From Halobellus limi (GTDB lineage: Archaea > Halobacteriota > Halobacteria > Halobacteriales > Haloferacaceae), in contig NZ_CP031311.1 in NCBI RefSeq assembly GCF_004799685.1, forward strand, positions 434,001 to 498,000: a DNA stretch of 64,000 bases, written 5' to 3'. The notes under the pieces are model-generated. The model ran no database searches. It was given only the letters and a program-made list of their open reading frames with translations, and was not told the origin of the DNA. Below are positions 4,512 to 58,885 of the stretch, in pieces (the first letter of the stretch is position 1; every line of letters starts with the position of its first letter). Position numbers and translations under genes: made by a program.

Positions 4512-4639
4512 CGAGGGGACAGCGGGGGATCGACGACGAACGGACGGCTGGGCGACGAACGAACGGGCAGACGACGCGTCGTCGCCGTCGGGTCCCGATC
4601 CGGTCGTGACTCCGTGGGGCCGTGACTCGGTCTGGCGAA

Positions 4640-4742
4640 CAGTCGGCACACGACCGGGCGCGTCCGTTTCGACCGGACCGCCCGCAACTCCCGCGTCGAC
4701 GTGCCGAACGACCGCGGCCCGACGCGGGACGGCTCTCAGATC
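4640..4742 (-). ncRNA. Candidate structured RNA, copy A
   Basis: The predicted start is at the conserved GATCTGA (4742 downward). A short hairpin follows (CCCG-CGT-CGGG, within 4718-4730). Then comes a long arm closed by TCGGCAC/GTGCCGA (4707-4701 with 4649-4643), whose apical helix pairs GGGCGGTCCG with CGGACGCGCCC (one bulge). A second copy at 58710-58800 has the same blocks and order, but a different apical helix that still pairs. Nothing suggests translation. A function cannot be assigned: archaeal box C/D, H/ACA, SRP and RNase P RNAs do not fit the visible motifs. Confidence 0.6.
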
Positions 4743-4775
4743 ACGGGGTCGCTGGCCCCGTCTTGGTTTATAAAC
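4743..4775 (-). promoter_or_regulatory. Promoter with dyad for RNA copy A; TATA is a perfect palindrome
   Basis: GTTTATAAAC at 4775-4766 is a strong and fully palindromic TATA box. Between it and the conserved GATCTGA lies an inverted repeat, ACGGGG-CCAGCGA-CCCCGT (4761-4743). The distance from the TATA to GATCTGA is 23 nt in both copies, so the dyad occupies the stretch where an operator would block initiation. Because the TATA is symmetric it could also fire toward rpoH. Confidence 0.55.
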
Positions 4776-4819: not shown

Positions 4820-4922
4820 CCTTTATCCGGGACTCGCGTGTGTCAACGCAACACGAGTGCTGGGGGTACTCGTGATGGTGAGCCGCGCTTATCCGACCCG
4901 GAGTTGGCAAGGGTTAAATGGC
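4820..4922 (+). promoter_or_regulatory. Likely promoter region of the RNA polymerase operon
   Basis: Three TATA-like elements face rpoH: CTTTATCC near 4832, GCTTATCC near 4889 and GGTTAAATG near 4914. All lie 70-160 nt before the rpoH ATG, so whichever is used leaves a leader, unlike most genes here. Which one is active cannot be decided from sequence. Confidence 0.4.
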
Positions 4923-4991
4923 TCCCATCCGAACCGGCCTGTAGTATCCCGTGACAACTTCTTCCCCAATCAACACCCAGCACACCCAGAC

Positions 4992-58677: not shown

Positions 58678-58709
58678 TTTATATACGAACGAGGCACCAG
58701 AGGCCTCGT
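58678..58709 (+). promoter_or_regulatory. Promoter with dyad for RNA copy B
   Basis: TTTATATAC (58678-58686), then the inverted repeat ACGAGGC-ACCAGAG-GCCTCGT (58689-58709), then GATCTGA. The TATA-to-GATCTGA distance equals that of copy A. The arms differ from copy A by a paired change (G-C in A, A-T in B), so the symmetry is kept. Confidence 0.55.
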
Positions 58710-58800
58710 GATCTGAACGCTGTCCCGCGCCGGGCAGCGGGTGTTCGGCACGCCGGCGCGGGTACGGCTGGCCCGAGCGCCAGCCGCGGTGTGCCGACTG
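58710..58800 (+). ncRNA. Candidate structured RNA, copy B
   Basis: From GATCTGA at 58710-58716. Next is hairpin CGCTG-T-CCCG-CGC-CGGG-CAGCG, then the arm closed by TCGGCAC/GTGCCGA (58745-58751 with 58791-58797). Its apical helix GGCTGGC/GCCAGCC (58766-58772 with 58779-58785) has a CCGAGC loop. The conserved CGCGGG block lies inside the arm. It is about 90 nt, in an intergenic gap with no ORF and antisense to nothing. The 3' end is not defined by a T-run; conservation with copy A fades after GCCGACTGT. Confidence 0.6.
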
Positions 58801-58885
58801 TCAGCCATACTCCGTCGCCGCTCCCGACGCCGTCGCGTCTGCGCCCTCGACTGTCGCATCGCGTCGCGTCTGCACCCCCCGACTG

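Follow-up and report, generated by a model that had tools for sequence, protein, structure and literature searches.

A dispersed family of haloarchaeal RNAs predicted to join a leaderless two-codon reading frame to an H-type pseudoknot

The window, that is, the whole stretch of 64,000 nucleotides from Halobellus limi analysed here, carries two related tracts: copy A on the minus strand (4775-4640), located between pgi and rpoH, and copy B on the plus strand (58678-58800). Both were present where the first-pass annotation had placed them. As that annotation had also stated, the two tracts have in common, in this order, a TATA box, GATCTGA, GTCCCGCG, TTCGGCAC, CGCGGG and GTGCCGACTGT, and the arm TCGGCAC/GTGCCGA is the same in copies A and B. 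The features of both copies are listed in Table 1.

Table 1. Positions of the elements of copies A and B in the window, with the basis of each assignment.
Feature	Positions	Strand	Basis
Copy A, TATA box (TTTATAAA)	4767..4774	-	Sequence; family-wide TATA spacing
Copy A, promoter-region element GGNCCA, about -15 to -10	4753..4758	-	Family alignments
Copy A, predicted leaderless two-codon ORF GTG-ATC-TGA, at the predicted transcription start	4736..4744	-	RTG-NNN-stop in 185/192 members
Copy A, linker from stop codon to pseudoknot, 6 nt	4730..4735	-	6-7 nt in 178/192 members
Copy A, P1 5′ strand, pairs with 4689-4698	4720..4729	-	Covariation
Copy A, loop 1 (GGCCGCGGTCGT), holds the conserved GCGGTYG	4708..4719	-	Alignment conservation
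Copy A, P2 5′ strand TCGGCAC, pairs with 4643-4649 and crosses P1	4701..4707	-	Covariation
Copy A, P1 3′ strand	4689..4698	-	Covariation
Copy A, loop 3, variable hairpin (earlier "apical helix")	4650..4688	-	Unconserved in copy A orthologues; length varies
Copy A, P2 3′ strand GTGCCGA	4643..4649	-	Covariation
Copy A, conserved 3′ motif CTGTTCGCC, where sequence conservation ends	4634..4642	-	Alignment conservation
Copy B, TATA box (TTTATATA)	58678..58685	+	Sequence
Copy B, promoter-region element GCACCA	58694..58699	+	Sequence, alignment
Copy B, predicted leaderless two-codon ORF GTG-ATC-TGA	58708..58716	+	Family codon pattern
Copy B, linker, 7 nt	58717..58723	+	Sequence, family spacing
Copy B, P1 5′ strand CCCGCGCCGG, pairs with 58753-58762	58724..58733	+	Covariation
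Copy B, P2 5′ strand TCGGCAC	58745..58751	+	Covariation
Copy B, P1 3′ strand CCGGCGCGGG	58753..58762	+	Covariation
Copy B, loop 3, variable hairpin	58763..58790	+	Sequence, loop 3 folding comparison
Copy B, P2 3′ strand GTGCCGA	58791..58797	+	Covariation
Copy B, conserved 3′ motif, variant CTGTCAGCC	58798..58806	+	Sequence

Homologues were sought by blastn and with covariance models. With copy A as the query against 60 related genomes, blastn recovered other copies with E values down to 1e-28, at least 14 matches falling in the window's genome (G000) and 10 to at least 14 in the other genomes of the genus that have the family. A covariance model built from 29 members and spanning the TATA box to P1′ (model R1) detected 59 copies in the window's genome at E ≤ 1e-12, so that the original description as a two-copy family no longer holds. 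In the same genus, this model found 18-54 copies in each of 11 further genomes and no copy in five others. At E ≤ 1e-5, at least one copy was present in 236 of 392 genomes of the haloarchaeal order, representing 59 of 95 genera. The other positive genera or genomes that were fully counted with a broader, full-length covariance model of the family (model R2) contain 2-22 copies each. Among 296 sampled genomes of the phylum, the 34 positives were all members of the same order. A contig pattern scan revealed at least three copies in records named Halobacterium sp. KA-4, Halosimplex pelagicum, and a Halobacteriales MAG. Scanning with a covariance model, as the first-pass annotation had proposed, thus uncovered many homologues beyond the window's genome. 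We consider a large, dispersed family of stand-alone RNA genes in haloarchaea, each copy with a predicted TATA promoter of its own, to be strongly supported.

The five genomes of the genus without copies gave only chance-level scores in a permissive family scan as well. They include those of L279 (G009) and L280 (G010), which are classed in the same genus yet have a G+C content of 43-44% in a 10 kb sample, compared with 66% in the window. Second, weak matches to model R1 occur near a full copy at L136 5316-5405 and L081 772-861 and may represent decayed or tandem copies. In Rfam 15, tRNA was the sole match of the whole window at the gathering score; copies A and B and 20 other members matched nothing meaningful, also when A, B and ten members were scanned permissively. 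A description of the family was not found in the open-access literature.

To analyze the fold, we scanned all column pairs in an alignment of 52 diverse members (A4), with no structure supplied. The strongest double changes fell nearly all into two helices, P1 (columns 55-61/88-94) and P2 (columns 77-83/108-114). Among the 52 members, 94.6% of the P1 and P2 cells were paired, compared with 75.5% after shuffling, and 164 cells had changed on both sides, compared with 46.8 ± 5.2 in the shuffled controls. Two-sided changes were observed for 15 of the 17 base pairs, and pairing dropped to 30-50% when the partner columns were slid by 1-3 positions. The covariation thus exceeds chance expectation, the point on which a check had been suggested, and, together with the many homologues, it bears out the initial claim of a small structured RNA family. 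The arms CCCGCG/CGCGGG and TCGGCAC/GTGCCGA cross each other, which makes them a pseudoknot rather than nested stems. Two crossing helices with compensatory changes, as required for an H-type pseudoknot RNA, strongly support a predicted fold in which P1 (10 bp) crosses P2 (7 bp). Nested minimum-energy folds of copies A and B were no better than those of shuffles (z = -0.12 and -0.84, respectively), calculated with a tool that cannot model pseudoknots; the structural case therefore rests on covariation.

Over P1 and P2, G·U outnumbered A·C by 59 to 5, a count slightly favoured by the choice of the P1 register for maximal pairing; in P2, where no such freedom exists, the numbers were 8 and 3. The excess of G·U indicates that the structured RNA corresponds to the strand running from the TATA box to P2′, and an RNA on the opposite strand was rejected on these counts. 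The conserved block begins at the TATA box and takes in the GGNCCA element 5′ of the start codon, as would be expected of a repeat or promoter motif acting at the DNA level. Double changes in crossing helices and a G·U excess on one strand are, however, signs of RNA, and the synonymy of stop codons described below is a sign of translation; an explanation at the DNA level appears hardly credible. The order of the strands, P1, P2, P1′, hairpin, and P2′, is also that of HDV-like ribozymes. This candidate was rejected because the P2 and P1′ strands are separated by 1-2 nt in the aligned members, with no P3 hairpin between them; the family further differs from these ribozymes in lacking their conserved catalytic core.

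Between promoter and pseudoknot, GTGATCTGA makes better sense as three codons, a start, a sense codon, and a stop; the codon pattern of the family strongly supports this reading, which the first-pass annotation overlooked. At the predicted transcription start, 185 of the 192 distinct members have GTG or ATG followed by one codon and a stop, and the triplets are thus conserved as codons, as in a two-codon minigene. The start triplet is GTG in 170 and ATG in 19 members, whereas the third triplet is TGA in 168, TAA in 10, TAG in 10, and TGG in one. The middle codon is variable, with 24 kinds counted, mostly ATC, ACC, and ACG. When the frame was shifted by 1, 2, or 3 nt, the pattern was absent among the 192 members. 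If the second and third positions of the stop codon were independent, TGG would be about as common as TAG; since TGG is nearly absent, the two positions are linked. The linkage is strong (Fisher p = 1.5e-10, phylogeny ignored), although this value overstates independence because the TAA and TAG members are mostly found in the window's genus, the others being L184, L262, and L264.

The pattern had been set down before 40 further members were fetched, and 39 of these fitted it, 38 by script and L238 by eye; the 40 are new sequences and form part of the 192, but they were found via model R2, which was built from pattern-bearing members, and are therefore not an unbiased draw. The one failure, L277, has TGC as its third triplet. 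Together with L122, L200, and L215, it makes up the four members in which the mini-ORF is broken outright. L188 contains one extra codon with the frame kept, and L140 and L141 can be read as ATG-TGA. At the copy A locus, the orthologue in G014 reads ATG ACG TAG, compared with GTG ATC TGA in the window; both start and stop have changed and are nevertheless kept.

The distance from the first base of the TATA box to the start codon is 30 nt in 153 and 31 nt in 30 of the 192 members. In these 183 members, the start codon coincides with the expected start of transcription, and the ORF is therefore predicted to be leaderless. A GGNCCA-like element, which is unusual in archaeal promoters, lies between the TATA box and the start codon family-wide and may be the mark of a dedicated regulator. 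A dyad had been described between the TATA box and GATCTGA. We compared the stem score of each member's own sequence with that obtained after permuting the halves between members, and the scores were 4.18 and 4.16, respectively (z = 0.4), with z = 28 for P1 as the control. The dyad, which sits 5′ of the predicted transcription start, was thus rejected as a conserved RNA stem.

The apical hairpins of both copies can pair, as proposed earlier, but they belong to a variable, lineage-specific insert in loop 3 and do not constitute a conserved helix. Within the genus, loop 3 is a hairpin-rich insert that folds better than mononucleotide shuffles (mean z = -1.9); in most members outside the genus, it is minimal. 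The loop 3 of L072, with a length of 106 nt, folds far above mononucleotide shuffles (z = -6.4) and resembles a separate palindromic insert. Neither loop 3 nor the 3′ flank is conserved among the copy A orthologues, and a guide-RNA function was rejected for both on this ground.

In recoding, the pseudoknot follows the shift site at a distance of 5-9 nt (PMC8211752). The family shares with such cassettes, which consist of a stop or slippery site, a spacer, and a pseudoknot, the H-type fold and a spacing within this range, namely 6-7 nt between stop codon and P1 in 178 of the 192 members. Readthrough or frameshifting at the stop of the mini-ORF could in principle lead to a longer protein. In contrast to recoding cassettes, however, only a single codon precedes the stop, and a conserved downstream frame is absent: with respect to the mini-ORF, P2′ falls into each of the three phases (61/49/44, p = 0.23), and in 23 of 154 members another in-frame stop occurs ahead of the 3′ motif. 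As the downstream frames are unconserved, no longer protein is implied. The recoding element was rejected, and we regard a recoding signal as very improbable.

At the loci examined, the copies are mostly intergenic, and all four arrangements of the neighbouring genes are present. A riboswitch or leader of the downstream gene was rejected, since most of the copies to which a neighbour was assigned have that gene in antisense orientation. Between co-directional genes, antisense copies are about twice as frequent as sense copies (61 versus 30 in three sets), and a convergent gene often has its stop codon within 0-30 nt of the 3′ motif. These two observations would suit a cis-acting antisense or termination element at the 3′ ends of genes. 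Such an element is difficult to reconcile, however, with the occurrence of all four arrangements, with the G·U bias, which places the structure on the TATA-driven strand, and with the neighbours, for which no common function emerged among the loci read; we consider it quite improbable. Besides pgi and rpoH, inspection of translations pointed to tRNA-guanine transglycosylase, aroC, aroA, moeA paralogues, and rtcB as neighbours. In a genus with about two copies per genome, copies are found beside rtcB and near glyA. The L113 copy is flanked by two genes whose translations resemble relatives of archaeal tRNA-guanine transglycosylase.

Several loci are kept within the genus, and some copies adjoin the same gene in other families. 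Some occupied loci correspond to empty sites in other species, and these sites are too diverged to show insertion ends or target duplications. Loci filled in one species and empty in another, copy numbers ranging from 0 to 59 among related genomes, and P1 and P2 sequences that are nearly uniform within the genus, as after a recent burst, are all compatible with a selfish or mobile RNA element amplified within genera, without host function at most loci. In the copy A orthologues, however, the core persists and loop 3 and the flanks diverge; promoter, mini-ORF, and both helices are retained in orthologous copies, which argues for selection at individual loci. Furthermore, a single 151-base query from copy A gave only one match, at chance level, in phage and plasmid records, and one exact family pattern had zero matches in IMG/VR. 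A phage or plasmid origin was rejected, as the queries used gave no match, and a selfish element seems improbable.

We are highly confident of the predicted architecture, composed of a TATA promoter, a two-codon ORF, an H-type pseudoknot, and a 3′ motif resembling CTGTTCGCC. The RNA is predicted to be 80-200 nt long and to begin on GTG or ATG, encoding Met and one further amino acid before the stop. A ribosome would bind the 5′ start codon directly, with this codon in the P site, and would form one peptide bond, yielding a dipeptide. P1 would begin at about nucleotide 16-17, close to the front of a ribosome placed in this way. Whether the P site is occupied by the start codon or the A site by the stop codon, the pseudoknot would lie at or near the mRNA channel entry, so that the ribosome would halt or terminate at the knot and the RNA would stay folded. 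The RNA might then act in trans, either keeping ribosomes bound or favouring the release of dipeptidyl-tRNA, as two-codon minigenes do, or it may serve as a reporter of initiation and termination. The presence of many copies without a conserved targeting segment points to dosage rather than to individual targets. As judged from the sequences, the best explanation as a whole is a two-codon minigene RNA that is leaderless and brings a ribosome up against a pseudoknot, and we would give it an even chance. Ribosome engagement as the mode of action, with the RNA serving as a translation decoy or sensor in trans, has in our estimate slightly less than an even chance. More tentatively still, the family might be a new RNA class, with a leaderless minigene plus H-type pseudoknot in up to about 60 copies per genome, that parks the ribosome and regulates translation globally.

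Alternatively, the pseudoknot could be the functional unit, bound by protein in an RNP, with a mini-ORF that is merely protective: its immediate stop might prevent translation through the structure, or a ribosome at the 5′ end might shield the RNA from exonuclease. Loop 1, the pseudoknot, and the 3′ motif indeed equal the mini-ORF in conservation, and the effect of the axe-txe minigene has been explained by ribosomes protecting the mRNA (PMC8708949). Nuisance translation, on the other hand, would be expected to cost the start codon, yet 189 of the 192 members keep GTG or ATG, and the spacing between stop and knot is fixed at 6-7 nt. We therefore judge a purely protective mini-ORF to be unlikely.

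In eukaryotic mRNAs, start-stop and very short upstream ORFs are minimal ORFs able to hold a ribosome. The ATG-TGA of L140 and L141 is similar to such start-stop elements, but the haloarchaeal RNA is a stand-alone molecule rather than an mRNA leader. The bar minigene of phage lambda reads AUG AUA UAA. Like the haloarchaeal family, the two-codon minigenes of lambda bar and axe-txe have a single sense codon between start and stop. Known minigenes, however, have leadered or internal starts and no attached structured RNA, whereas in the haloarchaeal family the start is predicted to be leaderless, a pseudoknot follows, and dozens of copies exist. Two-codon ORFs are the most toxic minigenes reported in E. 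coli, through dipeptidyl-tRNA drop-off, and minigenes are expected to cause either this drop-off or ribosome occupation; the axe-txe minigene acts in cis only, and it is for E. coli that trans effects of minigenes have been published (PMC8708949); both points weigh against the mode of action proposed here.

Ribosome-associated sRNAs have been described in Haloferax volcanii, namely rancRNA_s194, sRNA_61, and SHOxi (PMC6104027, PMC12482152), and for sRNA_61 and SHOxi, ribosome occupancy was reported without a detected protein; sRNAs of this kind are abundant in the species (PMC12482152). Compared by description, their likeness to the family lies in ribosome occupancy; the accessible parts of these reports describe neither a pseudoknot nor a two-codon ORF in the three sRNAs (PMC6104027, PMC12482152). 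What appears to be new is the combination of minigene and pseudoknot as a stand-alone, multi-copy RNA, for which the function we propose is hypothetical. If our interpretation is right, an RNA class that joins a minimal reading frame to a pseudoknot exists in an order with genetically tractable models. Leaderless initiation, the early drop-off of peptidyl-tRNA, and roadblocks formed by pseudoknots could then be studied in a natural system, and the class may help to explain ribosome footprints on haloarchaeal sRNAs without detected protein. Sequence-only searches have classified most Haloferax sRNAs as "not conserved" (PMC3956466); such searches could miss families that are kept mainly by structure and codon pattern.

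A further observation concerns the plus strand 5′ of rpoH, at window positions 4840-4960 (CACGAG...TTGGCAAGGGTTAAATGG...CTGTAGTATCCCGTGACAACTTCT). Blocks of this stretch are recognisable even in low-G+C genomes without copy A, and it may represent another non-coding RNA or a structured leader.
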